A stretch of DNA of 64,000 nt from Clavaria fumosa (taxonomy: Eukaryota > Basidiomycota > Agaricomycetes > Agaricales > Clavariaceae), in contig OX637794.1 of assembly GCA_951802425.1 (NCBI GenBank), forward strand, positions 2,976,001-3,040,000. Direction: 5' to 3'. The notes beneath the pieces are model-generated. The model did no database searches. It saw only the letters and a program-made list of their open reading frames with translations, and was not told the origin of the DNA. Each line of letters starts with the position of its first letter. The stretch's first letter is position 1. Below, in pieces: positions 7,665-49,518 of the stretch. Both the position numbers and the translations under genes were made by a program.

Positions 7665-7675
7665 ATCTTAGTATT
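7665..7675 (-). promoter_or_regulatory. Putative self-primer binding site of gypsy A
   Basis: On the element strand AATACTAAGAT begins 1 nt after the 5' LTR. Its reverse complement ATCTTAGTATT lies in the same LTR at 7722-7732, 43 bp downstream of a TATA box (TATAAG, first T at 7775). No tRNA-like primer site is visible. Confidence 0.7.
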
Positions 7676-7676
7676 A

Positions 7677-7966
7677 TATCAGACTGGGTCTCACACAACT
7701 TAAGCGTAAGGTCATGACGACAATACTAAGATAAGGGGAAAAGAGTACAAAAAAGGAAAAGCGAAAGTACTTATAGCGAACGCTTCGGCACTTGCCGGCA
7801 TTCCCACGCTCGGACCCTCGGATCACGTGATGCGCCCAGGCCCAGGTCATGTGATCTTACATGATTACATAATCCGACCCAGCCACAGGTCATGTGACCT
7901 TCCAACAACCCTCCCCAGTTTCTCCACAACTGCACTTTGGGATGGCTTACATAAGCGATCCTAACA
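7677..7966 (-). repeat. 5' LTR of gypsy A (promoter LTR)
   Basis: A 290-bp LTR identical to 2375-2664. In element orientation U3 carries one TCACGTGA and two TCATGTGA/C sites, then TATAAG, then the presumed transcript start ATCTTAGTATT. Confidence 0.93.
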
Positions 7967-8264
7967 CTTCCAGAACCTCTAGGCCTCACTGATAGGCAGA
8001 AAGCACATAGATTCTTCACCCTCTGACATATTGATTGCCATACACCAGTACCAATTACATGTTGCAATTCTCCAAATGGGCATTTCCCACAGAGCATGGT
8101 TTATTGTTCAGTAGAATGACAGTTTATACAGCCTGGACTTTGGTCCTCAAGAGAGATCTGTGAGCAAAGGCTCCTCCCAAACTACACTCCCACTGAGTTT
8201 CCTGCCCTACTCATCACTGCCCTCAACCAAGAAATTTTCTGTCAGACCATAGAAGGCCTGATGA

Positions 8265-9890
8265 TTGAAGACATCGAAAACGTCGAGCCCCTGCCAAGAA
8301 CACCTTCGCCCCCTACTTCCCCATGACTCCCTAACTACACTGACACCACAGTTCAGGCCAACACCTCCAAGTCCCACCCCTGAACTGACTGTTTCCTACA
8401 AGCATGCACAAGCAACATGTGGCTTGTCATCGATACCCACCAAACCCCCCCTAGACTCCACTCTTGGTCTGCCATTAACCCATGAGCCTACCCTAGTGCC
8501 TGGCCCCATCCAACCTCAGATATTGGAAGATCCCTACAAGATGCCTTTGGACAGCCCTGCATGCTCACTGCCTCTTGTGACCCTTGCCCTCCCCATACAA
8601 CTCAATCCCTCTCCCCCTCCTCAGTCTCCTCCATCCCCAACTCCACAGAACTCTTGGACATTGATGACAAAGTCTTCAGATATGATGTCTAGTGGATTCT
8701 CCCTTGCCCCCTTCAATGGGGATAAATGCACATACTGCACTTTTGCCCATCAACTCAATATTCTTTTCATTACAGAAGAGACGAAGTTTGATACAGATAA
8801 GAAGAAGGTACTGTTCACCCTGAACCAGATGCACAGAGGTTATGCTGAGGAATGGGTGAACTCCATAGTTGAAAGAATAGTTGCAAACCCCCTCTCCTGC
8901 CCCACATGGGCCTCCTTCAAAGTAACCCTCAATGCTGAGTTCTCTGACACAGTGGAGAAGGAAAATGCTACAACATTTTACCCCCACACTGCCCCAGAGT
9001 CGACATCAACATCCAGCTAGAGGGTGGTGCCTGCCCATACCAGTCCCAGATTTATCCAACACCCAAAGCTTACAGTGCTGAACTCCAGAAGTGGCTAGAT
9101 GAAATCCTCATGACTGGACAAATCTACCCTGGTCAGTCACTGTGGGCCAGCCCCCTCTTCTTCAAAAACAAAGGAGACAAGCTCCAGCCAGTGGTTGACT
9201 ACAAATGGTTGAACAAAGTCACAGTCAAGAATGCCTACCCCCTCCCTCTCATTTGGAACATCTATGATCATCTGCAGAAGTTCCAGTACTACTCAAAAAT
9301 TGATATTCAGATTGGATTCAACAATATCTGTGCATCAAAGGAGAGTGAGAAGCTGCTAGCATTCATTTGTGAATATGGCCAATTCCTCTGCAGAGTCATG
9401 CCCTTTGGAGTAACTAATGCCCCTGCAATCTTCCAGGCTTTTATGGACAATGCCCTGAAGGATCTCATGTCCACCAGCCAGGTTTTCATATACATTGACG
9501 ACATCCTAATCTGTTCTGACACTTGTGAGGAACTTCGCAACCTTACCATGTGAGTTTTCCAGGTTCTCCAGGAAAACCACCTTACAGTTAAGCCCTCAAA
9601 GTGCAAGTTCAAACAGGCAGAAGTCACCTTTCTTGGTAACAAAATTTGACAAGGAACCATTGAGAAGAGTGAGAAAAGGTGTTCAGCTATCAACAACTGG
9701 CTGGTCCCAAGATCTGCCAAGGACACGTGAAGGTATACAGCCCTCAGGAGTCACTATTGCTGATATATCCCAAATTATGCAAAAATCGCTGCCCCACTTC
9801 ATGCCCTCACTGGGAAAGGAGAGTTCAAACTAACAGATGCCACCCTAAAGTCATTCCATAATATCCAGGACACTATACAGAACTTACAGG
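8265..9890 (+). pseudogene. Gag/reverse transcriptase relic of gypsy E
   Basis: The gag part has the conserved core (SGFSLAPFNGDK at ~8692, then YAEEWVNS). From ~9000 the frame moves directly into the region before RT, so zinc knuckle and protease are deleted. RT then runs with ASPLFFKNKGDKLQPVVDY, RVMPFGVTNAPAIFQ and the catalytic YIDDIL (~9495). Stops and frame changes follow after 9553, and similarity ends at ~9890 where element D begins in the opposite orientation. Confidence 0.8.
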
Positions 9891-12323
9891 TTGTGATCCC
9901 CCAAGATGGGATGCCTTGGAAGATTGAGTTGGGGGAGGGTTTACTTGGGGGTTTCATGTCCAGAATGGTGAGGGGGATAGTTGTGGAGCGGGCTGTCTGT
10001 CCGAAACTAAGGGAGAGGTTAGTCCAATTGATCTTGGGGTTCCAGGTTCGCAACCAATCGAGTCCTAGAACCACAGGGGTGAGAGGATGGGTCTTGGTGA
10101 CGAGGAACTTGATGGATTGGATGGTATCGTTGGGGAATTTTGTATTAGCGAGGACGTAATGGGTGATGTTTGAACTGGAAGAACTTCCATTGAAGTATTG
10201 AAGTGGTAAAGGTTGTGGGAGCAGCATTAGGAGGTTCGGACAGGTGTTTGCAAGTGTGAAATCGATGAAATTCATGCATGCGCCACAATCCACAAGAGTA
10301 TTGAGAGGAATCAAGCCGAAATCTGGGATTTGCGTTTTTATGAGGAAAGACTGGGAGGACTGGGAAGCAATAGGCATATTAGAAAAGTTGCGAAGAAACT
10401 GAGAAGAGGAGGAACTAGTCACAGCCCATGCGAGTATTGGGGTTGGTTTGTTGTTGCAACTCAGAGTTCCCCCAGAAGCTCCTGAGCCGCTTCCTCATTT
10501 AACTCTTCATGCAGGTCATCCTCATGCTCTTCCACTTCTTCCTCAACTTCATATGCTTCCTGAAAGTCTTCCTCTCCTTCCTCAAGCATAAACACGGCCC
10601 ATCCTGCTACTTGTTGGTCAGGGCATGCTGCGCTAAAATGTCCCGGCTTTCCACATCTCAAACATAGGTTTCCCTGACAGTGTCATTCTCATTCCTCATC
10701 ACTGAGGGGCATGTAGGGTGGATTTGGATTCGGCTGGCAAGGCAGATTGGCAGGTCATGGTGTGGTCGCGGGGTTTCCTGCAGCTGGTCAGGGCATTGTA
10801 GGATTGTTGCCAGTGGCGGGATAGGGTCACAATGTTGTTTGAAAGTTGCGACTTCTGCCTTGTTGAGTAAAGGGGCAATTTCCGCCTTGTTGAGCAGGGG
10901 GATGAGGAGCAGGAGGGTTGGTGTGGAATTGAGTTTGGCAGGTCTCGCTCTCATACTCCCAGTGCCTCTGATCGATTTGCATTGCCAAATCTCGAAGTTC
11001 TTGATACATCGTAGGTCACGGAATGACCTTCATAGCCTCTTTGATATGCGTGGACAGTGAACGATAGAGTTCCAACTGAAGGGTGGCCGAGTTCCAGTTG
11101 GATTCGAAGGCAAAGGACTCAAAGCATATAATATGGTTCGAGAACTGTTCGTTTTCACCCATCTGCAACATATGGAGGTTCTGGTCCGCTTCGATCTGCA
11201 TGTTAACTACTCCAAACATTCCTCCAAACTCACAGATGAATCCTTCCCAGGAGTGTAGGGCCGGATGTTCGGCATTGAATTGAAGGAGGGAGGTGTAGTG
11301 GCTCTGCACAGTGTCTGTGAGGTAAGAGGCCATGAAAGTAACCCTCTCGTGGTCTCCCTGGAAGGTTATGGGTTTTGCGAAGAAAGTCATAAGGCATTCC
11401 ATGACAAAAGGCTTCCATTTACGCCAGTCATGACCATTAAACGGTTCAGGGCACCTGGTATCGAGCTTTGATTCTTGAGCAAAGGCATCTTGAGCCGATG
11501 GTCCTTCAGAAGGAGGGGCCTGGTAATAGTAGTGGTGGTGGTGGGTACCAGGGGCCTCATCTCGAAGTGTGGCGGCAAGGTGTGGAGGCATAGGAGGGAT
11601 TGGAGGGACCTGCAGGGCTTCAGCCTGAGACGGGGGGTGGGATGCTGGTTGCATCTCCATCAGGGGTACTGGTCGCACTTCCAGTTGAGGAATATGGAAG
11701 GGTTCGACTGGTACTTTGAGGTGGGGGGCAGGTTGAAGCATTGCTTCAGTCCCTATAGGGTTGTGAGGGAGCGCCCTGCTTGGAGTAGTGGCTGGTTGTG
11801 TCCAAGTGGGCCAGCTACTACAGGGGGCGGTGTACCTTGGGATCCTAGAGACAATGGCAGGTCGCTTGTTGGGCGCAGCAGGATTTGCGAAATCCTGAAG
11901 AGATTGGGCCATGACCTGGAAGAGCGGGGCCATATCCCAGAGTCCTCTGGTGGGTTGAACCTGTCTTGGAGGTTGTGAGGGGGTATCCAGGTCAGGAGGA
12001 GTGGGAACTCCATGGTCAGTCGTCCCTGGATACTGTTGCTGACTCTCGTACAATTGATTCTGTGGATTAGCACAGAATCTGTCTGTCAATCTAACCAAAG
12101 GCTCATAAAGATTTGTAGTCTCTATGAGATATGCCAATTCTTCATCGAGAGTCCCAGCTTCGTACTGGCAATGGGTATTATTGAGAATTTGGTAAGTATG
12201 GTGGTGAGGACGGTTGAAACACAGGTAGCTGAGCTGCTCTATGAGGGACTCGGCTTCTTCATGCGGGGACAAAGCTTGACTGGCTGTGATTTGGGTGGGT
12301 TCTTCGGGTTGCAACTGAACAAC

Positions 12324-12628
12324 TGTCAGACTTAGTCTCATGGTTCACACAACTTAACGTAAGGTCGATGATGACGATACTAACATAAGGGGAAAAGGGT
12401 ACAAGTAAGAAAATGACATGGTATATATAGCGAGCAGTTTGGGAGTTGCCGGCATTCCCACGCTCGGACCCCGTGCGTCACGTGATGCGTCCAGGCCCGG
12501 GTCACGTGATTTTCCCATTATGTAATCCACCACCCATTCGGGTCACGTGACTCGTCCGCAAACTTCCCGCAACTCTTTTGCGATCCTTTCTTGGCCTTTC
12601 CAACCTGCTTATGTAAGCAATCCTGACA
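12324..12628 (-). repeat. 3' LTR of gypsy B1
   Basis: A 305-bp LTR with TGTCAG...CTGACA ends. The polypurine tract lies immediately inside it at 12629-12640 (plus strand TCACCCCCCTC). Confidence 0.93.
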
Positions 12629-12639
12629 TCACCCCCCTC

Positions 12640-15600
12640 TTAAGGCTGGGCGTCTCGACCTGCCAACTTCGCCTTGTCAGGGTATTGCTGGAAGAAGTCC
12701 CGGAGCAACAGTGCAACGTTAGTGAGGTTGCGACGAGGTTCCCAGGTGTTCTCCTCTGCAGGGTATCCTAACCACTTCACCAAATACTTCACTCCCCATC
12801 CAACCTTCTTGACATCAAGAATTTCCTCCACCTCATACTCCAAGTGGTCATCGTCAATCGTGGGGGGTGGGGGTGGAGGCAAGTTCTGGGAAGGGAAAGA
12901 GGGAGCAATATACGGGGTGAGTAGCAACTCATTGAAAACCCGGTGAATGCACCATGCTCGGGGGAGCTTGAGTCGGTATGCTGCTGGTCCAACCTTCTCT
13001 TCGATAGTGAAGGGTCCAGCCCGCTTGTTGTCAAGCTTCTTGGATGGTCGATCCATTTTCAGGTTCCAGGTATCCAGCCAGACTAAGTCCCCCTTTGAGT
13101 ATTCACGACTCGGGCGCTTTCCTTTATCATAGCTAGCCTTCATCGCATCTGCCGCCTTCCCCATTGCATCCCTGGCTGCTCTTCGGGATTCTGTGAGCTT
13201 GGCCATCCACTCGTCTGCTGCAGGGTTCACTTCAGAGGGCGGCTGGATACCACCATTCCAAGGGTGCCAGCCATACTCCAGATAGAAAGGTGTGAATCCA
13301 GTGGCTGAGTGCTCACGGTTATTGAGCGCGAATTCGGCTGTGGATAGCCACTCTGCCCAATCATCCTGCAGATGGTCAACATAGGCCCGGAGATACACTT
13401 CAACCTCCTGATTGACCTGCTCTGTCTGTCCATCTGTTTGTGGGTGGAAGGCAGTGCTCGGGTTCGCCTTAACTCCAATCATCCCATAAAACTCCCTCAT
13501 GAATCTGGACACAAATTGGGTTCCCCGGTCACTCACAACTTTCTGCAGGACTCCATGGTCGCGGAAGACCCGGTCTCGAAGGATCCGAGCAGCACCAAGT
13601 CCCATGAGGTCAAGGCCAATAGCTTTGATGAGAGTTCGTTTTGTAAACTTGTCAACAATGACAAGGATCGCATTGTGACCACATGAGAGGGGGAAAGGCC
13701 CAACAATGTCCCAAGAGATGACTGCCCAGGGGCTCTCAGGGACAGGGTGCAGATGGAGTGGGGCGGCGCGCCTGGTACGATCAGGCTTGATTCGTTGGCA
13801 TGTCTCGCATCCACCTGCATACCAATTGGAATCCTTCACCATGCCCACCCACCAGTAGGACCTCAGCAGAGCCGCCCTCAGTTTCCGTGGGCCAGGGTGC
13901 CCTGCGATGGGGAGGTCATGCTCAAAGGTGAGCACTGCCTCACGTGCTTCTGGGGGCACCCAAGTGATTTCTGCCTTCTGCCAGAGTCCCATCATCAAGC
14001 TCCTCTGGCTTCTGCACATATACTGCGCTGTTTTTCTGGAGTAGCATCTCCATCTCCGATGTGAACGATGTGTGGGTCTCAGCCTCTGGGAAGACCTGTA
14101 CTGGTGCATCCTCCTCCACCATCTCTCCATAATCTGGCCTCCGTGAGAGTGCATCCGCTTTTGTGTTTGACTTCCCAGTACGGTACTTGATCTCGAAGTC
14201 AAAGCACTGGAGCTCTCCAACCCAATGGACCTGCCTCAGTTTCAACTTCTGGGGCTTCCGGAAGTGCTGGAGGTTAGCATGGTCCATCCAGATTTCAATA
14301 GTCTCTTCCACCCCAATCAGGTAAGCCCGCCACTCACGTAGTGCCCGGATTACAGCCAGGAACTCCTTGTCGTACACATCGTAATTCTTCTCAGCTGCAG
14401 TGAGGGCTTTGGAGATGTAGTCTACAACTCTCCAAGTCCCATCCACCTGCTGCTGTGAGAGAACTCCTCCAGTGGCCAAGTTGCTCGCATCCGTTTCTAC
14501 CTTCCATCTCCCTTTGTCTTGTGGTAGAGCCAAGACTGGGGCTGATACTAGTGCCAGGCGGAGATCTTGGAAGGCTGCTTCCTCCTCCTCCTCCCATCTC
14601 CACGGGACTTTCCCTGTCAGCCGGAAGAGTGGTTTTGCCCGGGCAGAGAGATTCGGGATGTGCCGGCGGAGGTAGTTCAGCATCCCATTGAATCTTTGTA
14701 CCTCTTTCACATTTTTCGGTCTGGGCCAGTTACGGATCGCTGCGCCTTTAGCTGGGTCATGCTCTAGACGGTTGTGGGAGATCTTCATCCCCAGGAAGAA
14801 AACCTCACTCTTCTCGAACTCGCACTTGCTGAGTCTGAGACACAGGCCATTCTCCCCAAACTTCTTCAAGACCCGATCCATCCAATACCGATGTGTAGCC
14901 AAATCCTCTGCAAACACTATAACATCATCGACATAGGCTTGGACATGCCCCCCTGCAATCTCTTCTCTCAACACATGGTTCATGAAGCACTGGAAGGTTG
15001 CAGGCGCATTCTGCAGCCCAAACCACATAACTGCCAGTTCGAAGAGTCCACGAGGCATTAGGAAAGCACAGTGGTGCTGATGTTCTGGCCAGACCTGCAT
15101 CGATGGGAAACCTCCCTTCACATCAATCTTGGAATAGATGGTCATCCCCATTAACACATCCACAGTGTCTCGTATGAGGGGGAGGGGGTACTTGTCTTTG
15201 ATTAGATACGAGTTCAGCCTAGAGTAATCGATAATCGGCCGCAGCTTGTCCTTCTCACGTTTGAAGAAGAAGGGGCTTGCGTACGGGGACTTCGAAGGTC
15301 GGATTCGTCCAGAAGCTAGCTGCTCATCCACCCAGCGATTCATTTCCACCATCTCTTCTCGCGTCAGAGAGTATAGCTTAGAGGAGAGGTGTCCAGGGTC
15401 TGTTTTAAACTCGATTTTGATATCAAAGTCAGGGCGGGAGCGGGGGAGCTCATCCCACTTTGCTTCACTAAAAACCAAAGGGTAGCGGCTGGGCCAATCA
15501 GGGGTAGGGCCAGTGTTGGGAAAACGGGTGTCCGGGATACTGGCCGAGGCCAGGGTACTCGCTTTTGGTGGACCTGAGGGTCGAACAGGGGACCGGTGGC

Positions 15601-16243
15601 TGTGTGGGGAGGAGGCACAGGAGTTGGGGCAGCGGGTGAGCCTTACTTCAGCTTTCACCCAGTCAATCTCTGGATTATGACGCTTTAGCCAATCATGCCC
15701 AAGGATCGCCATGTGGGACTGAGTCTTCCCTAGCAGGAAGTGGATCCGCTCCTGGTGGTCGCCAACCATCACAAGCAGCTCCATCCCATACCGGATCTTA
15801 CCATCTCTGTTCTGTGTTCCATCCACATTATACATGGTGATTGGATTCAGCAAGGGAGATGGTTCCAATCCCACTTTTTTCGCCCACTCCAAGTCCATAA
15901 AGCAGTTGGTGCAGCCTGAATCGACAAGGGCTTTTGTAGTTGCCCCTTTGCCAGTGCTGAGAGCCTCCAGGTGCACCTGGATGGAGAGCTCTCGGGGCAT
16001 ACACAATAGGGTGTCCTTCAGCACCTCTGCAAGGTGCTTTGTTGGCTCCACTTGGCTGCTAGTCCCCTTTTCTCTTTTTGGTATTTCACTTTTAGTGGTT
16101 TCCGTTTCCACTTTGTCCTTCACCTCAGCCCAAATCCGGGTGTGTCTCCGCTGCAAGATAGTGTATTTTGGGATACTAGCTGCAGGTACAGGGACGGGAG
16201 GGGGGCTGGGATATCTACTCCTGAGACTCCAGTTCGGACTCAC
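12640..16243 (-). pseudogene. Pol polyprotein of gypsy B1, frameshifted
   Basis: Pol follows gag in the -1 frame, overlapping the gag terminator (GTGA at 16240-16243). It encodes protease (LVDSGCTNCFMD), reverse transcriptase (AYVDDVIVFAED), RNase H, integrase (ISWDIVG, VVSDRGTQF, QTEQVNQE) and a C-terminal chromodomain (YLVKWLGYPAEENTWEP). Relative to B2, 20 bp are missing at about 13990, between short CATC repeats, which shifts the frame between RNase H and integrase. All catalytic motifs survive, but the polyprotein is broken. Confidence 0.9.
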
Positions 16244-17244
16244 TGGGCCTCGTCTCCAAAATCCGGCTCCTCAACAGGAGCCCTCTTCTCTCTCTCGAGC
16301 AAATCCAGGCAGTCTCGGAGCAGTGCGATCTTGTTCTCATAGTCCTCTGCACTACGTGCCTGGCTTTCCACAGCACGGACCTGCGGCCTCGGGATCTGTG
16401 GACATGTGTTCTGGAGCTGGCAATCTCTCACCATGTGACCAGCTTGGCCACATTGGAAGCAGGTGCGCAACACTCCAGGGGCACAGGCACGATCCACCAC
16501 CATGGCATCACCGGCATTGGTGGGACACGGCATGGTGGGAGGGGCAGGGGTGCGGGCCAGAGGCTGGGCCAGGAAGGGACGGGGGGCTGGGGCGAAGCAG
16601 GTTTGTTGAGGGAGGGGGCGGCTGGTTGCGGGCAGAGCAGGACGCACAGAGTTCTGTTGTGCGATGACTCCATCGAGGCGACGCTGCTGAGCGTCTAGCT
16701 TTTCGGCAAGTGCCTTCCACTGCACGTAGGTCTCTGGCATTGGTGAAACACCATAGACCTTTCCCACTAGCCTCCTGCTCAGATTCGACTCCAGCCAATG
16801 GACCAGGATGTCCGAATCGGCCACTTCTGTCATCCCTGCTCTTCGGAACATCGTTTCGAACTTTGCGAAGAACTCAGGTGCCGTCATGACACCCTGTTTC
16901 AACCTCGCAATATCTGCGAGGGCAGTCGCACGGTCATTCGGGTCATCGAACACTCGCTTCATCTCTTCCACAAATTCTGCCCAGGTTCCAACCTCGTTGT
17001 TACCCAGGATTTCCTCTCCCTTCACATTTGCCCATTCTGCGGCAAACCCCTCGCCAGTAATTTTGCTGAGGGTGTAGAGGACCTTTGCCAGGTCCATGGC
17101 ATAGATTATCGGATTTGCCATAAACAGGAGGCGGAACGACCGGAGGAATGTATGGAAATTTCTTTTTTGCCCATCAAATGGGGCAACAACTAAATCCAGC
17201 CTCGTGGCATGGACTTCAGGCGGGGCGACGTGGTCAGCCATCAC
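16240..17244 (-). CDS. Gag of gypsy B1
   Basis: A 334-residue capsid/nucleocapsid protein that packages the element RNA in cytoplasmic particles. The gag core (FDGQKRNFHTFLRS to ILVHWLESNLSRRL) lies in the first 180 residues. A proline-rich linker and one CCHC knuckle (CFQCGQAGHMVRDC, ~16440) follow. The start MMADHVAPP is shared with gypsy A, C and B2. The frame is open to a TGA that overlaps the pol frame, so pol expression would need a -1 shift or reinitiation. Confidence 0.88.
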   Translation of the reverse strand: MMADHVAPPEVHATRLDLVVAPFDGQKRNFHTFLRSFRLLFMANPIIYAMDLAKVLYTLSKITGEGFAAEWANVKGEEILGNNEVGTWAEFVEEMKRVFDDPNDRATALADIARLKQGVMTAPEFFAKFETMFRRAGMTEVADSDILVHWLESNLSRRLVGKVYGVSPMPETYVQWKALAEKLDAQQRRLDGVIAQQNSVRPALPATSRPLPQQTCFAPAPRPFLAQPLARTPAPPTMPCPTNAGDAMVVDRACAPGVLRTCFQCGQAGHMVRDCQLQNTCPQIPRPQVRAVESQARSAEDYENKIALLRDCLDLLEREKRAPVEEPDFGDEAQ

Positions 17245-17803
17245 AGACCCTGGTGGTGGTGATGGGGTTTTGGGGACGTCGGTAACAGGGGAATCAGGGG
17301 GGAGCTGGGCTCGACCCGGTCTCGGACACAGATGCTGTAAATAGAATTCCGGGCCTTGGGCACTCAGGATTTCTTCGATCTCTTAGCAGTCCTGTCCTCT
17401 CAGGCTGCTCTCTATGTATCTAGGTACTTATAGAACTCTTATTCTATAAAACTTGTTGCTAGCGTGGGGCCCGAATGGTGTCCCAGGTGGTCACTCCACA
17501 ACTCCTAGTGAGTTGCCCGTGTGCCCTTCTGACAATGGTCACAGAGCAAGGGCCCTGTCCACTGGACCAGGAAACTACAGAAAAACTATGTATAGGGCCT
17601 TTCCGTGCCCTGTACACTACACGATTCACTGGTACGTAGCTGTAAAGCAAAGTTCCGGGCCTTTGGCACTCAGTGTCTCTTGGGGAGGGTCACAGTAGAC
17701 TTCCTCTGGGTCTGGTCACGTGTATCTACACACAGTAAAAATTTCACATGGTTCTGTTGCACACCGTGGGCAGGGTAAAGAGAAAGAGGATGAGGGGGAT
17801 AAG

Positions 17804-17822
17804 CTGTCACGGAGTGTGACAG
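17804..17822 (-). other. Leader hairpin of gypsy B1
   Basis: A 19-nt inverted repeat (CTGTCACG / TGTGACAG around GAG). The homologous hairpin in A (7609-7627) has stem CTGTGACA / TGTCACAG; the fifth base pair is G:C in A and C:G in B. B2 has a fully paired version at 49123-49141. Confidence 0.6.
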
Positions 17823-17882
17823 TTTGAGATAGGGGTCTAGGCTAGCCGGGTTAGGACACGGGGCTAGGGCGGACAGGGGTTG

Positions 17883-17892
17883 ATGTTAGTAT
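17883..17892 (-). promoter_or_regulatory. Putative self-primer binding site of gypsy B1
   Basis: On the element strand ATACTAACAT starts 2 nt after the 5' LTR. It pairs perfectly with ATGTTAGTAT in the LTR (17948-17957), 43 bp downstream of TATATATA (first T at 18000). Confidence 0.7.
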
Positions 17893-17894
17893 TG

Positions 17895-18199
17895 TGTCAG
17901 ACTTAGTCTCACGGTTCACACAACTTAACGTAAGGTCGATGATGACGATACTAACATAAGGGGAAAAGGGTACAAGTAAGAAAACGATGTGGTATATATA
18001 GCAAGCGGTTCGGGAGTTGCCGGCGTTCCCACGCTCGGACCCCGTGCGTCACGTGATGCATCCAGGCCCGGGTCACATGATTTTCCCATTATGTAATCCA
18101 CCACCCGTTCGGGTCACGTGACTCGTCTGCAAACTTCCCGCAACTCTTTTGCGATCCTTTCTTGGCCTTTCCAACCTGCTTATGTAAGCGATCCTGACA
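17895..18199 (-). repeat. 5' LTR of gypsy B1 (promoter LTR)
   Basis: A 305-bp LTR. U3 carries TCACGTGA at 18049-18056 and 18114-18121 and a decayed TCACATGA at 18073-18080. These lie upstream of TATATATA and the presumed transcript start. Confidence 0.93.
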
Positions 18200-18380
18200 A
18201 CAACGGATGCCGGTCATTCTTGAACGGTGGTAGGTGGCTCGCAGGTAGCCTCCAAGGCCATTGGAGTAATTGCATGGCTACCTGTGTGGGTCTGAAAGTG
18301 GTGAGTGATAGGTTGGGGAGGAGTGTGACTGGTGGACATAATAAGTTGTTATCCGGGCGTTGAGTGGTGGGGCGAGGGGG

Positions 18381-18392
18381 AGACTTGATATT
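18381..18392 (-). promoter_or_regulatory. Putative self-primer binding site of gypsy D
   Basis: On the element strand AATATCAAGTCT begins 1 nt inside the LTR edge (18394). It pairs with AGACTTGATATT in the LTR (19003-19014), 32 bp downstream of a TATATAAG box (first T at 19046). Confidence 0.65.
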
Positions 18393-18393
18393 A

Positions 18394-31277: not shown

Positions 31278-31335
31278 TGGCTTCAGTCTCAAAAATTAAA
31301 ACTTCTGTATCACAAGGAACCGGCTCTAGACTGTC

Positions 31336-35899: not shown

Positions 35900-36043
35900 T
35901 GCTCCGAAGACCGAAAATAACCTGTACCCAACATGCGCGTAGAACAGAGATTGGAGGACTGAGTGGATGTAAACCGTATACGTATGGTCACGCGACGCAA
36001 AATGGTGGCGTGACGTAATGCCGTGTGATGCAAAGCATGAGCA

Positions 36044-36337
36044 ATGATGGATGCTAGTGAAGTCACAACCTCAGCCATTTTATACCAGCAGCAGGATGGG
36101 GTATGGAGAATGGTGGATTGCCTTTCCACCAAGCTCTGGGATGCCCAGCTAAACTATGATGTCTATGATCTGGAACTCCTTGTGGTGGTGCATGCACTTG
36201 AGGAGTGGCAACATTATCTCCTCAGTCAAGACTTCAAGGTCCACATGGACCATAAGAACCTCTCATACTTCCGAAAGCCAAACCCACTCAATGGACATCA
36301 AAGTTGGCAGAGGCAGTTTCTCTCACTTTTCTGTTCA
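36044..36337 (+). pseudogene. RNase H fragment of gypsy G
   Basis: About 98 codons of RNase H with DASEVTTSAILYQQQDGVWR, LNYDVYDLELL and HKNLSYFRKPNPLNG, the standard gypsy RNase H blocks. It is truncated on both sides. Confidence 0.85.
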
Positions 36338-36429
36338 TATCAGACTGGGTCTCACACAACTTAAGCATAAGGTCATGATGACAATACTAAGATAAGGGGA
36401 AAAGAGTACAAAAATGGAAATGACAAAGT
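36338..36429 (-). repeat. Partial family-A LTR next to element C
   Basis: 92 bp matching the first part of the family-A LTR (TATCAGACTGGG to AAAGT), then joined directly to a complete LTR. Its last 20 bp have diverged. Confidence 0.85.
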
Positions 36430-36720
36430 TATCAGACTGGGTCTCACACAACTTAAGCATAAGGTCATGACGACAATACTAAGATAAGGGGAAAAGAGTA
36501 CAAAAAAGGGAAAGCAAAAGTACTTATAGCGAACGCTTCGGCACTTGCCGGCATTCCCACGCTCGGACCCTCGGATCACGTGATGCGCCCAGGCCCCAGG
36601 TCATGTGATCTTACATGATTACATAATCTGACCCAGCCACAGGTCATGTGACCTTCCAACAACCCTCCCCAGTTTCTCCACAACTGCACTTTGGGATGGC
36701 TTACATAAGCGATCCTAACA
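36430..36720 (-). repeat. 3' LTR of gypsy C
   Basis: 291-bp LTR, TATCAG...CCTAACA on the plus strand, followed internally by the polypurine tract (36721-36731). Confidence 0.92.
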
Positions 36721-36731
36721 TCACCCCCCTC

Positions 36732-39700: not shown

Positions 39701-41164
39701 GGATGGGGAACACTGTGGGGGGCAGCGGGTAAGGCTCAGCTCTGCCTTCTGCCAGTCAATATCCGGGTTATGCCACTTGAGCCAGTCATGCCCAAGGATG
39801 ACCTTGTGGGACTGGGTCTTTCCCAGCAGAAAGTGGATCCGCTCCTGGTGGTCACCAACTCTCACCAGCACCTCTATCCCATACCGGACCTTTCCATTCC
39901 TGTTCTGCATCCCATCCACATTATACATGGTGATTGGGTTCAGCAGGAGAGATGGCTCCAGTCCCACTCCTTTTGCCCACTCCAAATCCATGAAGCAGTT
40001 GGTGCACCCTGAGTCAACAAGGGCCTTTATTGTGGTCCCTTTGCCAGTGCTGAAAGCCTCCAAGTGCACCTGGATGGCTAGCTCTTGTGGCACATGTTTC
40101 CGCACTTCTGGCTGCACTCTGGTTAGGCGCTCTGCCAGTCTCACTTCCTCCTTCACCTCAGCCCCAATTCGGGTATGTCTCTGCTGCAAGATAGTATATC
40201 GGGGTATACTTGCAGCAGGCACAGGGACGGAAAGGGGGCTGGCACACTTCTTCTCCCCAGTGGGAGTCCTCCTCTCTCTCTCACACAGCTCTATGCAGGC
40301 TCAGAGCCGTGCAATCTCTTTCTCATATCCCTCCGCCATTTGGGGGGCACATGGTGCTGCCCAGGTTTGGGCCCTTGGGACCTGCAGACGCATATCAGGC
40401 AGGGGGCAGAAACGGACAGCATGGCCAGTCTGGTGGCATTGGAAACAACATCTCTCATCAGCAGGGGCCCATCCTCGGGCCATGGCCACATCCAGAGTAC
40501 ACAGCAGAGGGGTCACAAGAGGTCGTGAAACGGTCACAGCAGGTTGCACGGGGGTCACGGGGGGTCGCGGTGTCCGTTCCGTGAGTATCCCATCCAGTCG
40601 CCTTTGCTGGGCATCAAGCCTCTCAGCCAGCACCTTCCATTCTCCATATGTCTCTGGCATCGGGGAGACACCATAGATTCTCTCCACCAACCTCCTACTC
40701 AGGTTCAACTCCAGCCAATGGACTAGGATTCCTGAGTCCTTCTCTGCACTCAACTTCACCCGTCGGAACAGTGTCTCGAATTTCGTGAAGAACTCCGGTG
40801 CTGTCATGGCACCCTGTTTCAGCCCTGCAATATCGGCAAGGGCAGTCGCACGGTCATTTGGGTCATCGAATGCGCGCTTCATCTCCTCCACAAACTCTGC
40901 CCAGGTTCTGGCCTCGCCACTACCCAGGATCTCTTCCGCCTTCATATTCGCCCACTCTGCAGCGAATCCTTCTCCAGTAATTTTACTCAGAGCAAAAAGG
41001 ACCTTCACCAGGTCCACAGCATAGACAGTTGGGTTCGCCATAAACAGGAGGCGAAGGGATCGGAGGAACGTACAGAAGTTCCTTTTCTGCCCATCAAAGG
41101 GGGCAACAGATAGGTCAAGCCTCATAGGTTGGGCTACAGGCGGGGCGACATGGTCTGCCATCAC
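36732..41164 (-). pseudogene. Gag-Pol polyprotein of gypsy C, three stops and a frameshift
   Basis: Same domain order as in element A: gag from 41164, CCHC knuckle, protease (LVDSGCTNCFMD), RT (YVDDVIVFAED), RNase H, integrase and chromodomain. Unlike A, gag reads through into the knuckle because the CGA at ~40600 is intact. Stops are TGA at 40301-40303 (A has CAA), 39284-39286 (A has CGA) and 36825-36827 (A has CGA). A 2-nt insertion near 38895 shifts the frame within RT. Inactive. Confidence 0.92.
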
Positions 41165-41723
41165 AGGCCCTGGATGCTGTAAATAAAGTTCCAGGCCTTG
41201 GGCACTCAGGATTTCTTCGATCTCTTAACAGTCCTGTCCTCTTAGGCTGCTCTTCTGTGTACTTATGTACCTATAGAACTCTTATTCTATGAAACTTTTG
41301 TTAACGTGGGGCCCAAATGGTGTCCCAGGTGGTCGCTCCACAACTCCTAATGAGTTGCCTGTGCGCCCTTCTGACAATGGTCACAGAGCAAGGGCCCTGT
41401 CCACTGGACCAGGAAACTACAGAAAGACTATGTAGGGGCCTTTCCTTGCCCTGTACACTACATGATTCACTGGTATGTAGCTGCAAAACAAAGTTCCAGG
41501 CCTTGGGCACTCGGTATCACTTGGGGAGGGTCACAGTTGACTTCCTCCTGGTCTGGTCATGTGTATCTACACACAGTAAAAATTTCGCGCGGTTCTGTTA
41601 CACACTGCAGGCAGGATAAAGGAGAAGAGGATGATAGGGGCTGAGCTGTGACAACGTGTCACAGTTTGAAATTAAGGGTCCAGGCTAGCCGGGTTAGGAC
41701 ACGGGGCTAGGGCGGACAGGCGG

Positions 41724-41734
41724 ATCTTAGTATT
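41724..41734 (-). promoter_or_regulatory. Putative self-primer binding site of gypsy C
   Basis: The same 11-nt primer site as in element A (AATACTAAGAT on the element strand), 1 nt from the LTR. Its partner in the adjacent LTR is also intact. Confidence 0.65.
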
Positions 41735-41735
41735 A

Positions 41736-42026
41736 TATCAGACTGGGTCTCACACAACTTAAGTGTAAGGTCATGACGACAATACTAAGATAAGGGGAAA
41801 AGAGTACAAAAAAGGAAAAGCGAAAGTACTTATAGCAAACGCTTCGGCACTTGCCGGCGTTCCCAGGCTCGGACCCTCGGATCACGTGATGCGCCCAGGC
41901 CCCAGGTCATGTGATCTTACATGATTACATAATCTGATCCAGCCACAGGTCATGTGACCTTCCAACAACCCTCCCCAGTTTCTCCACAACTGCACTTTGG
42001 GATGGCTTACATAAGCGATCCTAACA
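41736..42026 (-). repeat. 5' LTR of gypsy C
   Basis: 291-bp LTR with the TATA box and R-start motif of family A. It differs from 36430-36720 mainly by transitions. Confidence 0.92.
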
Positions 42027-42042
42027 GAACAACTCAGAGCAC

Positions 42043-42711
42043 TTGGTGACTGGCTACACCCCCTTCTTCTTGGACTATGGACAACATCCTTGGAATGGAG
42101 GAATCCACCACCGCACTGAGGTAAACCCAGCTGCTGACAAGTGGATGGCCAAACTGGAAGAGTCAAGGCAGGCTGCCAAGGAGGCGATGGAAAAGGAGGC
42201 GCTAGCAATGAAAAGGGGTTACAATAGTGGGAAGTGGCCCAGTTGCGAGTATGGAAAGGGAGACCTCATATGGCTTGACACATGGAACCTGAAAATGGAC
42301 CGCCCAAACAAGAAGCTCGACAATAAATGCGCTGGACCTTTTACCATCATCGAGAAGGTAGGGCCAGCAGGATATCGCCTCAAACTGCCTCTGGCCTGGC
42401 GTATCCATGATGTATTCAATGAGCTCCTCCTAATGCCATATGTTCCCCCTTCCTTCGCCTCTCAGTCCCGACCACCTCTTCCCCCTCCCACCATTGATGA
42501 TGACCACTTGGAGTACAATGTCGAAGAAATACTAGATGTAAAGAAAGTGGGATGAGGAGTGAAGTATCTGGTGAAATGGCTAGGATACCCCATTGAAGAA
42601 AACACCTGGGAACCCTGGCAGAACCTCACCAACATCACACCCCTGCTTCGTGACTTCTTCCTCAAACATCTGGAGAAGGTGAAGCTAGCTGGTCGAGATG
42701 CCCAGCCTTGA
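42043..42711 (+). pseudogene. Integrase C-terminus and chromodomain of gypsy G
   Basis: The frame 42043-42555 encodes the end of integrase (GYTPFFLDYGQHPWNGG, EYGKGDLIWLDTWNLKMD) and the linker before the chromodomain. A TGA at 42553-42555 (in GTGGGATGAGG, where family B has a sense codon) interrupts it. The chromodomain (YLVKWLGYPIEENTWEP) continues in the same frame to the native end, DAQP then TGA, at ~42711. Confidence 0.85.
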
Positions 42712-42722
42712 GGAGGGGGCCA

Positions 42723-43549
42723 TGTCAGGATTGCTTATGTAAGCCACCACCACTGAACTCCAGAGTGCTCCAGAGACTGGCGACAAGGGACGAATGAGAA
42801 GTCACATGACCCCCCACGACCTTCACCATATGCCCACGACTCTGCGCCAGCACCTACAGGTCCACTATAGGCATCCATCACGTGCCCCCACCCATGTTTC
42901 TTGGCCTTTCCTACACTTTGCAATTCGTGATGGAGGCGGATTGATGACAGCAGAACTGACAGCCACCATCAACTAATCTATCCTAATCGGGCTTAGTTGA
43001 GATCTTCCCTCGGGCAGCCAAGCCCATGCCAAGCATCTCCCTTGTCTGCACTCCCTATCCATGCCTCCCCGCCACCTTCCTATTTTAGCATCTCATTTAC
43101 CCTAATCCACCTCCCCTATACCTCACAACTCAGTGCGCGTAGCCTCACTCTTGTCCTCATGACTCACACACACTGCACAGCCCCCTCTCCTTGTATATAT
43201 AGTGCCCATGTAATAGTGGTAGTTCCTCACATTGAAATTGAGTCACTTCCCCTTACGCTCTCTGTGAGGAACCTGGACTGACACTATCCCAAAGAGGAGT
43301 TGTGGAGAAACTAGAGAAGATTGTTGGAAGATCACATGACCTGTGGCAGAGGATTACATAATTGTGAGATTGCATGACCTGGGGTTTGGGCATGTCACAT
43401 GATCCAAGAGGTCTGAGTGTGGGAACTCCAGGAAGTCCCAAAGCTCTTGCTATAAGTACCTTCACTTTTCCTATTTTGTGCTCTTTTCCCCTTATGTTAG
43501 TATTGTCATCATGACCTTACATTTAAGTTGTGTGAGACCCAGTCTGACA
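42723..43549 (+). repeat. 3' LTR of gypsy G
   Basis: An 827-bp LTR with TGTCAG...CTGACA ends, preceded by a polypurine tract (GAGGAGGGGGCCA, ending 42722). TATAAG at 43451 is followed 43 bp later by ATGTTAG (43494), the same spacing as in families A and B. U3 is much longer than in A or B. Confidence 0.85.
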
Positions 43550-43622
43550 GTTTGAGATAGGGGTCCAGGCTAGCCGGGTTAGGACACGGGGCTAGGGCGG
43601 ACAGGGGTTGATGTTAGTATTG
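43550..43622 (-). repeat. Orphan family-B leader and primer site
   Basis: 73 bp matching the sequence just inside a family-B 5' LTR (compare 17823-17894), ending with the primer site at 43611-43620. It abuts the LTR at 43623, which also serves as the 3' LTR of B2. It is therefore the remnant of a second, truncated family-B copy in tandem with B2. The junction with the G LTR shares TGACA with the missing B sequence. Confidence 0.85.
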
Positions 43623-43927
43623 TGTCAGACTTAGTCTCACAGTTCACACAACTTAACGTAAGGTCGATGATGACGATACTAACATAAGGGGAAAAGGGTA
43701 CAAGTAAGAAAACGACGTGGTATATATAGCGAGCGGTTCGGGAGTTGCCGGCGTTCCCATGCTCGGACCCCGTGCGTCACGTGATGCGTCCAGGCCCGGG
43801 TCACGTGATTTTCCCATTATGTAATCCACCACCCGTTCGGGTCACGTGACTCGTCCGCAAACTTCCCGCAACTCTTTTGCGATCCTTTCTTGGCCTTTCC
43901 AACCTGCTTATGTAAGCGATCCTGACA
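43623..43927 (-). repeat. LTR shared by B2 (3') and the truncated tandem copy (5')
   Basis: 305 bp, TGTCAG...CTGACA. On its left is family-B leader; on its right the B2 polypurine tract and pol end. Confidence 0.92.
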
Positions 43928-43938
43928 TCACCCCCCTC

Positions 43939-46900
43939 TTAAGGCTGGGCGTCTCGACCTGCCAACTTCACCTTGTCAGGGTATTGCTGGAAGAAGTCCC
44001 GGAGCAACAGTGCAACGTTAGTGAGGTTGCGACGAGGTTCCCAGGTGTTCTCCTCTGCAGGGTATCCTAACCACTTCACCAAATACTTCACTCCCCGTCC
44101 AACCTTTTTGACATCAAGAATTTCCTCCACCTCATACTCCAAGTGGTCATCATCAATCGTGGGGGGTGGGGGTGGAGGCAAGTTCTGGGAAGGGAAAGAG
44201 GGAGCAATATACGGGGTGAGTAGCAACTCATTGAAAACCCGGTGAATGCGCCATGCTCGGGGGAGCTTGAGTCGGTATGCTGCTGGTCCGACCTTCTCTT
44301 CGATAGTGAAGGGTCCAGCCCGCTTGTTGTCAAGCTTCTTGGATGGTCGATCCATTTTCAGGTTCTGGGTATCCAGCCAGACTAAGTCCCCCTTTGAGTA
44401 TTCCCAACTCGGGCGCTTTCCTTTATCATAGCTAGCCTTCATCGCATCTGCCACCTTCCCCATTGCATCCCTGGCTGCTCTTCGGGATTCCATGAGCTTG
44501 GCCATCCACTTGTCTGCTGCAGGGTTCACTTCAGAGGGCGGCCGGATACCACCATTCCAAGGGTGCTGGCCATACTCCAGATAGAAAGGTGTGAATCCAG
44601 TGGCTGAGTGCTCACGGTTATTGAGCACGAATTTGGCTGTGGATAGTCACTCTGCCCAATCATCCTGCAGATGGTCAACATAGGCCTGGAGATATACTTC
44701 AACCTCCTGATTGACCCGCTCTGTCTGTCCATCTGTTTGTGGGTGGAAGGCAGTGCTTGGGTTCGCCTTAACTCCAATCATCCCATAAAACTCCCTCATG
44801 AATCTGGACACAAATTGGGTTCCCCGGTCACTCACAACTTTCTGCGGGACTCCATGGTTGCGGAAGACCCAGTCTTGAAGGATCCGAGCAGCACCAAGTC
44901 CCGTGAGGTCAAGGCCAATAGCTTCGATGAGAGTTCGTTTTGTAAACTTGTCGACAATGACAAGGATCGCATTGTGACCACATGAGAGGGGGAAAGGCCC
45001 AACAATGTCCCAAGAGATGACTGCCCAGGGGCTCTCAGGAACAGGGTGCGGATGGAGTGGAGCGGCGCGCCTGGTACGATCAGGCTTGATTCGTTGGCAT
45101 GTCTCGCATCCACCTGCATACTGATTGGAATCCTTCACCATGCCCACCCACCAGTAGGACCTCAGCAGAGCCGCCCTCAGTTTCCGTGGACCAGGGTGCC
45201 CTGCAATGGGGAGGTCATGCTCAAAGGTGAGCACTGCCTCATGTGCTTCTGGGGGCACCCAAGTGATTTCTGCCTTCCGCCAGAGTCCCATCCGATCTCT
45301 CGTCCACTCATCATCAAGCTCCTCCGGCTTCTGCACATATACCGCACTGTTTTTCTGGAGTAGCGTCTCCATCTCTGATGTGAACGATGTGCGGGTCTCA
45401 GCCTCTGGGAAGACCTGTACTGGTGCATCCTCCTCCACCATCTCTCCATAATCTGGCCTCCGTGAGAGTGCATCCGCTTTCGTGTTTGACTTCCCAGTAC
45501 GGTACTTGATCTCGAAGTCAAAGCACTGGAGCTCTCCAACCCAACGGACCTGCCTCGGTTTCAACTTCTGGGGCTTCCGGAAGTACTGGAGGTTAGCATG
45601 GTCCGTCCAGATTTCGATAGTCTCTTCCACCCCAATCAGGTAAGCCCGCCACTCGCGTAGTGCCCGGATTACAGCCAGGAACTCCTTGTCATACACATCG
45701 TAATTTTTCTCAGCTGCAGTGAGGGCTTTGGAGATATAGTCTACAACTCTCCAAGTCCCATCCACCTGCTGCTGTGAGAGAACTCCTCCAGTGGCCAAGT
45801 TGCTCGCATCCATTTCTACCTTCCATCTCCCTTTGTCTTGTGGTAGAGCCAAGACCGGGGCTGATACTAGTGCCAGGTGGAGATCTTGGAAGGCTGCTTC
45901 CTCCTCCTCCTCCCATCTCCACAGGACTTTCCCTGTCAGCCGGAAGAGTGATTTTGCCCAGGCAGAGAGATTCGGGATGTGCCGGTGGAGGTAGTTCAGC
46001 ATCCCATTGAATCTTTGTACCTCTTTCACATTTTTTGGTCTGGGCCAGTTATGGATCGCCGCGCCTTTAGCTGGGTCATGCTCTAGACGGTTGTGGGAGA
46101 TCTTCATCCCCAGGAAGAAAACCCCACTCTTCTCGAACTCGCACTTGCTGAGTCTGAGACACAGGCCATTCTCCCCAAACTTCTTCAAGACCCAATCCAT
46201 CCAATACCGATGTGTAGCCAAATCCTCTGCAAACACTATAACATCATCGACATAGGCTCGGACATGCCCCCCTGCAATCTCTTCTCTCAACACATGGTTC
46301 ATGAAGCGCTGGAAGGTTGCAGGCGCATTCTGCAGCCCAAACCACATAACTGCCGGTTCGAAGAGTCCACGAGGTGTTAGGAAAGCACAGCGGTGCTGAT
46401 GTTCTGGCCAGACCTGCATCGATGGGAAACCTCCCTTCACATCAATCTTGGAATAGATGGTCGCCCCCTTTAACACATCCACAGTGTCTCGTATGAGGGG
46501 GAGGGGGTACTTGTCTTTGATTAGATACAAGTTCAGCCTAGAGTAATCGATAATCGGCCGTAGCTTGTCCTTCTCACGTTTGAAGAAGAAGGGGCTCGCG
46601 TACGGGGACTTCGAAGGTTGGATTCGTCCAGAAGCTAGCTGCTCATCCACCCAGCGATTCATTTCCACCATCTCTTCTCGCATCAGAGAGTATAGCTTAG
46701 AGGAGAGGTGTCCAGGGTCTGTTTTAAACTCGATTTTGATATCAAAGTCAGGGTGGGAGCGGGGGAGCTCATCCCACTTTGCTTCACTAAAAACCAAAGG
46801 GTAGCAGCTGGGCCAATCAGGGGTAGGGCCAGTGTTGGGAAGACGGGTGTCCGGGATACTGGCCGAGGCCAGGGTACTCGCTTTTGGTGGACCTGAGGGT

Positions 46901-47562
46901 TGAACAGGGGACCAGTGGCTGTGTGGGGAGGAGGCACAGGAGTTGGGGCAGTGGGAGAGCCTTACTTCAGCTTTCACCCAGTCAATCTCTGGATTATGAC
47001 GCTTTAGCCAATCATGCCCAAGGATTGCTGTGTGGGACTGAGTCTTCCCTAGCAGGAAGTGGATCCGCTCCTGGTGATCGCCAACTGTCACAAGCAGCTC
47101 CATCCCATACCGGATCTTACCATCTCTGTTCTGTGTTCCATCCACATTATACATGGTGATTGGATTCAGCAAGGGAGATGGTTCCAATCCCACTTTTTTC
47201 GCCCACTCCAAGTCCATAAAGCAGTTGGTGCAGCCTGAATCGACAAGGGCTTTCGTAGTTGCCCCTTTGCCAGTGCTGAGAGCCTCCAGGTGCACCTGGA
47301 TGGAGAGCTCTCGGGGCATACGCAATAGGGTGTCCTTCAGCACCTCTGCAAGGTGCTTTGTTGGCTCCACTTGGCTGCTAGTCCCCTTTTCTCTTTTCAG
47401 TATTTCACTTTTAGTGGTTTCCATTTCCGCTTTGTCCTTCACCTCAGCCCCAATCCGGGTGTGTCTCCGCTGCAAGATAGTGTATTTTGGGATACTAACT
47501 GCGGGTACAGGGACGGGAGGGGGGCTGGGATATCTACTCCTGAGACTCCAGTTCGGACTCAC
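43939..47562 (-). pseudogene. Pol polyprotein of gypsy B2, one premature stop
   Basis: A 971-residue frame (47562-44647) covers protease, reverse transcriptase (AYVDDVIVFAED), RNase H, integrase zinc site (CETCQRIK) and catalytic core (ISWDIVG, VVSDRGTQF, QTERVNQE). It ends at a TGA (44647-44649) where B1 has TGG. The same frame continues from 44628 to 43939 with the end of integrase and the chromodomain. The stop arises from a G to A change that is not at a CpG. This is the best preserved pol in the window. Confidence 0.92.
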
Positions 47563-48564
47563 TGGGCCTTGTCTCCAAAATCCGGCTCCTCAACAGGAGC
47601 TCTCTTCTCTCTCTCGAGCAAATCCAGGCAGTCTCGGAGCAGTGCGATCTCGTTCTCATAGTCCTCTGCACTACGTGCCTGGCTTTCCACGGCGCGGACC
47701 TGCGGCCTCGGGATCTGCGGACGTGTGTCCTGGAGCTGGCAATCTCTCACCATGTGACCAGCTTGGCCACATCGGAAGCAGGTGCACAACACTCCAGGGG
47801 CACGGGCACGATCCACCACCATGGCATCACCAGCATTGGTGGGACACGGCATGGTGGGAGGGGCAGGGGTGCGGGCCAGAGGCTGGGCCAGGAAGGGACA
47901 GGGGGCTGGGGCGAAGCGGGTTTGTTGAGGGAGGGGGCGGCTGGTTGCGGGCAGAGCAGGACGCACAGAGTTCTGTTGTGCGATGACTCCATCGAGGCGA
48001 CGCTGCTGAGCGTCTAGCTTTTCGGCAAGTGCCTTCCACTGCACGTAGGTCTCTGGCATTGGCGAAACACCATAGACCTTTCCCACTAGCCTCCTGCTCA
48101 GATTCGACTCCAGCCAATGGACCAGGATGTCCGAATCAGCCACTTCTGTCATCCCCACTCTTCGGAACATCGTTTCGAACTTTGCAAAGAACTCAGGTGC
48201 TGTCATGACACCCTGTTTCAACCTCGCAATATCTGCGAGGGCAGTCGCACGGTCGTTCGGGTCATCAAACGCTTGCTTCATCTCTTCCACAAATTCTGCC
48301 CAGGTTCCAACCTTGTTGTTACCCAGGATTTCTTCTCCCTTCACATTTGCCCATTCTGCGGCAAACCCCTCGCCAGTAATTTTGCTGAGGGTGTAGAGGA
48401 CCTTTGCCAGGTCTGTGGCATAGATTATCGGATTTGCCATAAACAGGAGGCGGAGCGACCGGAGGAATGTACGGAAATTTTCTTTTTTGCCCATCGAATG
48501 GGGCGACAACTAAATCCAGCCTCGTGGCATGGACTTCAGGCAGGGCGACATGGTCAGCCATCAC
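47559..48564 (-). pseudogene. Gag of gypsy B2, frameshifted near its start
   Basis: The start MMADHVALPEVHATRLD is at 48564. An extra T near 48477 (within the T-run of FDGQKR) shifts the frame; the correct frame resumes at 48509 and stays open to 47559 with the gag core and a CCHC knuckle (CFRCGQAGHMVRDC). The TGA again overlaps the pol frame as GTGA. Otherwise as in B1. Confidence 0.88.
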
Positions 48565-49201
48565 AGACCCTGGTGGTGGTGATGGGGTTTCGGGGACGTC
48601 GGTAACGGGGGAATCGGGGGGGAGCTGGGCTCGACCCGGTCTTGGACGCAGACGCTGTAAATAGAATTCCGGGCCTTGGGCACTCAGGATTTCTTTGATC
48701 TCTTAGCAGTCCTGTCCTCTCAGGCTGCTCTCTATGTATCTAGGTACTTATAGAACTCTTATTCTATAAAACTTGTTGCTAGCGTGGGGCCCGAATGGTG
48801 TCCCAGGTGGTCACTCCACAACTCCTAGTGAGTTGCCCATGTGCCCTTCTGACAATGGTCACAGAGCAAGGGCCCTGTCCACTGGACCAGGAAACTACAG
48901 AAAAACTATGTATAGGGCCTTTCCGTGCCCTGTACACTACACGATTCACTGGTATGTAGCTGTAAAGCAAAGTTCCGGGCCTTTGGCACTCGGTGTCTCT
49001 TGGGGAGGGTCACAGTAGACTTCCTCCGGGTCTGGTCACGTGTATCTACACACAGTAAAATTTCACACGGTTCTGTTGCACACTGTGGGCAGGGTAAAGA
49101 GAAAGAGGATGAGGGGGATAAGCTGTCACAGAGTGTGACAGTTTGAGATAGGGGTCCAGGCTAGCCGGGTTAGGACACGGGGCTAGGGCGGACAGGGGTT
49201 G

Positions 49202-49211
49202 ATGTTAGTAT
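49202..49211 (-). promoter_or_regulatory. Putative self-primer binding site of gypsy B2
   Basis: ATACTAACAT on the element strand, 2 nt from the LTR, pairing with 49267-49276. Confidence 0.65.
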
Positions 49212-49213
49212 TG

Positions 49214-49518
49214 TGTCAGACTTAGTCTCACGGTTCACACAACTTAACGTAAGGTCGATGATGACGATACTAACATAAGGGGAAAAGGGTACAAGTAAGA
49301 AAACGATGTGGTATATATAGCGAGCGGTTCGGGAGTTGCCGGCGTTCCCACGCTCGGACCCCGTGCGTCACGTGATGCGTCCAGGCCCGGGTCACGTGAT
49401 TTTCCCATTATGTAATCCACCACCCATTCGGGTCACGTGACTCGTCCACAAACTTCCCGCAACTCTTTTGCGATCCTTTCTTGGCCTTTCCAACCTGCTT
49501 ATGTAAGCGATCCTGACA
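49214..49518 (-). repeat. 5' LTR of gypsy B2 (promoter LTR)
   Basis: 305 bp. U3 has three intact TCACGTGA palindromes (49368-49375, 49392-49399, 49433-49440) upstream of the TATA box. Confidence 0.92.

Follow-up and report, generated by a model that had tools for sequence, protein, structure and literature searches.

How do the long terminal repeat (LTR) retrotransposons in a 64,000-nucleotide (nt) stretch of the Clavaria fumosa genome start reverse transcription? The stretch, called the window here, is C1:2976001-3040000 of a 48.8-Mb genome in 17 contigs, and its minus strand carries four Ty3/gypsy elements with paired LTRs (A, B1, C and B2). Just inside the 5' LTR of each lies a short site complementary to a motif within the LTR, and from this arrangement it had originally been predicted that the 5' end of the element RNA serves as its own primer. 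Such self-priming has been worked out in Tf1, and elsewhere it has often been assigned from complementarity alone. Our results, drawn from the window and from copies across the same genome, indicate that these are very probably Tf-like chromodomain Ty3/gypsy elements whose reverse transcription is self-primed.

In all five copies of the motif and site in the window (Table 1), the primer site is 10 nt long, lies 2 nt inside the 5' LTR and is the perfect complement of the LTR motif; the 2-nt spacer is TA in A and C and CA in the B elements. The original prediction had the pairs in A, B1, C and B2, with coordinates for B1 and B2 that hold and a complement there that is perfect over 10 nt, and had overlooked the fifth pair, past the LTR that serves as the 3' LTR of B2. 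For A and C, it had described an 11-nt complement starting 1 nt inside the 5' LTR. The letters and coordinates stand, while the length and offset do not: because LTR A ends at 7677, a 2-nt spacer followed by a 10-nt site fits every lineage, and 1 nt followed by 11 does not. Specifically, an eleventh pair is formed in A and C and is replaced by C against A in B1, B2 and most of the fetched copies of a further lineage, D. Counted from the first T of a TATA box, the motif starts after 43 nt in A, C, B1 and B2, as originally stated.

Beyond the window, the pattern TTAGTAT-N35-65-ATACTAA occurs at 618 places in the genome, compared with 1 for a reversed control. Counting by motif nt 3, with the other nine positions fixed, classes 592 of these places and leaves 26 unclassed: C is matched in the primer site at 381 and G at 208, and 3 are mismatched, so that 589 of 592 are matched. 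The C-to-G change that had been read from the window, together with its partner in the primer site, is thus borne out genome-wide. The original argument leaned on this one difference separating two families. The larger data set makes the case stronger and puts the shared length of the predicted primer at 10 nt. A search that left motif and site free returned 580 places, 100 of them listed, and among the first 40 in genome order, 37 had a primer site and 3 had unrelated sequence past the LTR end. The 37 sites (36 taken from fetched sequence or the window, 1 from the listing) comprised 35 perfect complements, one with a single G-U pair (L074) and one with a single mismatch (L096). A tree could be built for 46 of 53 copies, 7 having been dropped because their U3 match started too late; in it, copies with G in both motif and site are nested in the A lineage, and the starred branches force at least four gains or losses of that state. 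Since 15 of the 53 rows (L059-L067, L069, L071, L073, L107-L109) were chosen for their motif/site state, proportions within that set carry no meaning. Among 15 elements sampled instead from pol matches, 10 carried the signature when scored by script (2 B-type, 8 D-type), 2 D copies had one mismatch, and the fetched stretch of 1 did not reach the primer site.

Lineage D, located through a search with an Armillaria polyprotein, repeats the arrangement with another sequence. Its LTR ends in CTGACA, followed by a CA spacer and the site ATTTCAACGT, the complement of the motif ACGTTGAAAT that sits 56 nt before the LTR end, the spacer being 2 nt as in A/B. In a copy on contig C6, the 164-bp LTR-end stretch is repeated at the opposite end of the element with 100% identity, and in copy L041, the spacing between the first T of the TATA box and the motif is 34 nt. 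The D and A motifs differ at 5 of 10 positions, and all five differences are mirrored in the primer site. Further, a D subclade has C for T at nt 4 and G opposite it in 7 of the 7 copies listed; two T copies also have G there, forming a G-U pair. The D places listed number 82, of which 1 has no site, 6 have a cut-off site and 75 were scored; in a tabulation covering the outer four pairs, 54 had no mismatch, 39 of them with Watson-Crick pairs throughout. CpG-type matched changes in D were set aside as evidence of co-variation, since decay alone would match about half of them. In A/B and D copies alike, many differences resemble C to T at CpG, as in methylation-linked decay, and these were counted only at nt 2-3 of D. 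Several D copies near contig ends (G000:C4:63256, C7:147898, C15:33299, C9:32467, C8:3463257 and others) have one site mismatch in common, as subtelomeric segmental duplicates would.

The pairing itself was assessed in 69 sequences, 54 of them distinct (53 of A, B and C type and 16 of D). The ten pairs are formed in 98.9% of the 540 cells of the distinct sequences, compared with 85.1% after shuffling (0 of 500 as high) and at most 53.7% after sliding, and their covariation score is 0.440, compared with 0.185 for shuffled (0 of 500 as high) and at most 0.064 for slid alignments. RNAalifold returned exactly these ten pairs and none besides. Beyond the tenth, pairing falls to 60.2% (inner side) and 7.4% (outer side) of cells, with a covariation score under the shuffled mean, and an eleventh pair is formed in 32 of the 54 distinct sequences, never with both sides changed. 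A conserved helix longer than 10 bp is therefore unsupported by the pairs past the tenth, though A and C can reach 13 bp. Folds of single sequences predict the primer duplex and a U5 stem, with a motif-site pairing probability of 0.94-0.96 in A, C, B1, B2 and D and a stability beyond that of shuffles in A (z -6.2) and C (z -6.5). Judged by its co-variation, then, a 10-bp helix joins motif and site.

A route by which this helix would prime reverse transcription can be put forward on the model of Tf1. Transcription would start at the A of the LTR motif, 34-43 nt past the TATA box, and RNA nt 1-10 would fold back onto the 10-nt site 2 nt beyond the 5' LTR. The element's RNase H, if it acts as in Tf1, would cut after nt 10 and so leave a 10-nt RNA primer, which reverse transcriptase would extend through U5 to RNA nt 11. 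The product would then jump to the 3' end of an RNA, either its own template or one packaged with it, from which nt 1-10 and U3 would be copied. The Tf1 self primer is reportedly not removed; second-strand synthesis would copy the attached primer, and the primer site would be rewritten from it. Such rewriting would account for the recurrence of motif changes matched in the site. The RNA start, the RNase H cut and the use of the primer are what we infer by this analogy.

One of the three copies mismatched at nt 3, L067 (C2:1997857), bears on the jump. For its U3, the four nearest rows (0.92-0.93) are all A with motif C, and for its U5 and untranslated region (UTR), the four nearest (0.97) are all B; it carries the motif of A but the primer site of B, with a junction between motif nt 3 and nt 11. 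By its sequence, L067 is clearly a chimera, in which the motif goes with the U3 of one family and the site with the U5 of another. This product is expected of self-priming because, with RNA nt 1-10 cut away as primer, minus-strand DNA would end at nt 11 and the jump would add nt 1-10 and U3. A tRNA primer would be expected to leave the motif with U5, unlike in L067, and ordinary recombination between integrated copies could be an alternative source of such chimeras. The other two mismatched copies, L069 and L071, have motif G with an A-type U5 and site. A search for cross-family chimeras by single-nucleotide U3 markers gave 0 places with one pattern and 1 (motif G) with another; these counts say little because L067 itself lacks the pattern that gave 0 places. 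We give even chances to a more specific proposal, in which self-priming creates its own co-variation. Here, the site would be rewritten from the 10-nt primer at each cycle, so that a changed motif would be rematched in one or two cycles without a second mutation, and the 3 mismatched copies in 592 would be short-lived intermediates. They would arise by a strand transfer in which U3 and nt 1-10 come from one RNA and the remainder from nt 11, with U5 and the site, from a second; L067 would then map a natural primer cut by its junction.

Other explanations of the signature have to be set against self-priming. If the primer were instead a tRNA, a piece of one or some other small RNA, the inverted LTR match would be incidental. 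The tRNA genes recovered number 61, a lower bound that leaves some room for this, as ARAGORN named none of them as Asp, His, Pro, Trp or Tyr. A tRNA primer ending in CCA requires a site that begins with TGG, and none of the three primer sites does; among the 61 genes, the best initial run from the CCA end, with five offsets tried, was 1 nt, and the longest complement anywhere to any of the three sites was 7 nt. The absence of a tRNA-complementary site noted in the window thus extends to this incomplete set, in which tRNA priming is unsupported. Two distinct primer sequences, moreover, match their own LTRs, and C/G states are matched in 589 of 592 places, which together make an external primer extremely unlikely. 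(ARAGORN labels at least one of the tRNA loci L009-L038 and L123-L153 as Stop, anticodon tta.)

The 10-bp helix could also be a conserved RNA structure with another role, in packaging, dimerisation or translation, with priming by another route. Co-variation is evidence of pairing, not of priming, and the predicted helix in A and C extends to 13 bp, as a general hairpin might. Against this stand the position of the 3' arm, found 2 nt past the LTR in each lineage seen, the place required of a primer end that sets the LTR terminus, and that of the 5' arm, at the predicted RNA start; the drop in pairing past the tenth pair, where co-variation is no higher than in shuffles; and L067, in which the motif goes with U3 as if cut from the 5' end. 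We regard a helix with such a role as very unlikely. Chance complementarity, spread by the copying of a few ancestors, might be entertained since few changes are needed for the C/G states, the tree forcing at least four gains or losses and no more. However, only 28-32 of 20,000 dinucleotide shuffles per LTR contained a 10-nt stretch able to pair with a word that begins 0-5 nt inside (about 0.15% per element), yet A/B have such a complement and D has one of different sequence, to which a D subclade adds the matched change at nt 4; chance is next to negligible as an explanation. Self-priming, as originally predicted, agrees with the sequence tests, namely co-variation, the own-matched D primer, the tRNA test, the TATA spacing and the one chimera.

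Several results nevertheless count against self-priming or temper its support. The TATA spacing of 34-43 nt suggests that the motif is the RNA 5' end, and is only suggestive of it. The signature was absent from two of the 15 elements sampled from pol matches (L047 and L056), and the outer four pairs include a mismatch in 21 of the 75 scored D copies, in 20 cases at the CpG of nt 2-3, with a further D copy (C1:534368) mismatched at nt 6; where both CpGs are lost, 17 of 26 D copies are matched, when about half are expected. Two of the five helix measures fail to beat shuffling: pairs with both sides changed number 6, compared with 5.4 (217 of 500 as high), and for further pair types the count is 13, compared with 12.2 (166 of 500 as high). 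Of the 69 helix rows, 23 (15 of the 53 and 8 of the 16 D) had been fetched for their motif or site state, which adds to the variation counted. The B fold is not clearly stabler than its shuffles (z -1.74, 11 of 200 as good), and folds that disregard pseudoknots showed no third duplex of the kind in the Tf1 'pretzel'. Finally, no U3 donors of L069 and L071 were found, and none of the three mismatched copies had a 3' LTR within the 0.8-4 kb searched.

Self-priming as a mechanism is already known, and the 10-nt shared primer is a trait of the elements described here. Tf1 is described as using its first 11 RNA bases as primer, with an RNase H cut between nt 11 and 12 (PMC7175516), a process also treated in PMC4600332, and self-priming is a recognised feature of Tf1/sushi chromoviruses (PMC10085805, PMC6317226). 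Like Tf1 of Schizosaccharomyces pombe, and Tf2, Tj1, Tosmo1-3 and Tcry1, the elements here are chromoviruses in which the predicted start of the RNA can pair with a site just within the 5' LTR. They differ from Tf1 in a shared primer helix of 10 bp rather than 11 and in their basidiomycete host, and A and C LTRs end in TA, whereas fission-yeast LTRs are said always to end in CA. Among basidiomycetes, self-priming has been proposed for Tcn1 of Cryptococcus (PMC7175516), which the present elements resemble in host group and in their predicted mechanism. Possible parallels are also marY1, placed among the Tf1/sushi-related clades (PMC6317226), and other such clades of fungi and vertebrates. Self-priming was predicted for plant Tcn1-clade chromoviruses and TAR (Ty1/copia) elements from an LTR complement of at least 10 bp starting 0-5 bp inside the 5' LTR (PMC6317226), and the same kind of complement is present here; the hosts differ, and the accessible description of those elements includes no within-genome co-variation. 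Self-priming does not extend to all such elements: no LTR complement of this kind is reported for the chromovirus SM-Tcn1 (PMC2864245) or for Skipper elements (PMC5006619). We found no report of primer/site co-variation within one fungal genome in the open-licence literature by title or abstract opening.

By domain order and chromodomain, the window elements classify as Ty3/gypsy chromoviruses. Pfam matches to their frames include gag, aspartic protease, reverse transcriptase, RNase H, H2C2 and core integrase, in the order gag, then protease-reverse transcriptase-RNase H-integrase in A, B1 and B2; for C, the search covered the gag and RNase H-integrase frames. In-frame stops interrupt the gag and pol frames of A. 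SH3_Tf2-1 is present in A, B1 and C, as is a chromodomain (PF00385) at the integrase C terminus, covering 35 of 53 positions in C; PF00385 had no match in the B2 frame searched, the end of B2 lying outside that search. The pol domains thus appear to fit a Tf-like chromovirus, and the SH3_Tf2-1 match points toward Tf1/sushi. Named matches to the element polyproteins are mostly from Agaricomycetes (Armillaria, Sanghuangporus, Trametes, Agaricus, Agrocybe), and two vertebrate gypsy proteins come lower down; for a VPS11-like host gene, the named matches are to Trametes. Target duplications of 5 bp flank A (GGAAG) and B1 (GTTGT), and none was found at the LTR flanks of C or B2. The LTR serving as the 3' LTR of B2 also counts as the 5' LTR of another, truncated B copy because a primer site and 5' UTR come after it.

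Table 1. Positions of LTRs, priming signals and coding frames of the Ty3/gypsy elements in the window
Feature	Position	Strand	Remarks
Element A 3' LTR	2375..2664	-	LTR-LTR alignment
Element A gag and pol frames	2676..7187	-	gag, protease, reverse transcriptase, RNase H, integrase, SH3_Tf2-1, chromodomain
Element A primer binding site	7665..7674	-	complement of 7723-7732
Element A 2-nt spacer (TA)	7675..7676	-	LTR end by LTR-LTR alignment and duplication GGAAG
Element A 5' LTR	7677..7966	-	100% identity to 2375-2664 over 290 bp
Element A self-primer motif, predicted RNA nt 1-10	7723..7732	-	
Element A TATA box	7771..7775	-	first T 43 nt upstream of motif
Element B1 3' LTR	12324..12628	-	LTR-LTR alignment
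Element B1 primer binding site	17883..17892	-	pairs with 17948-17957
Element B1 5' LTR	17895..18199	-	LTR-LTR alignment
Element B1 self-primer motif	17948..17957	-	
Element C 3' LTR	36430..36720	-	LTR-LTR alignment
Element C primer binding site	41724..41733	-	pairs with 41782-41791
Element C 5' LTR	41736..42026	-	LTR-LTR alignment
Element C self-primer motif	41782..41791	-	
Fifth primer binding site	43611..43620	-	past LTR serving as 3' LTR of B2; pairs with 43676-43685
Element B2 3' LTR	43623..43927	-	doubles as 5' LTR of truncated further B copy
Fifth self-primer motif	43676..43685	-	
Element B2 primer binding site	49202..49211	-	pairs with 49267-49276
Element B2 5' LTR	49214..49518	-	LTR-LTR alignment
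Element B2 self-primer motif	49267..49276	-	

Other features of the window lie beside these elements. An additional A-type LTR motif at 36384-36393, 92 bp away from the one in the 3' LTR of C (36476-36485), suggests a second partial LTR. The end of an LTR on the plus strand lies at 43494-43549, with its motif ATGTTAGTAT at 43494-43503 and its end GTCTGACA at 43549; it adjoins the 5' UTR of the truncated B copy and is a nested or rearranged LTR. A plus-strand frame at 20813-22447 matches RNase H, H2C2 and integrase core, lacks a chromodomain match and is perhaps another retroelement lineage, and an inverted repeat of 523 bp joins 1-523 and 1015-1537 at 98.9% identity.

For self-priming, this genome offers unusually clear evolutionary evidence. 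Its hundreds of copies hold matched changes in two LTR lineages and set the shared primer at 10 nt, and the junction in one chimeric copy falls where the primer cut is expected. Two points can now be tested from genomes: the primer length used by each clade, and the idea that the primer itself is the template for its site.

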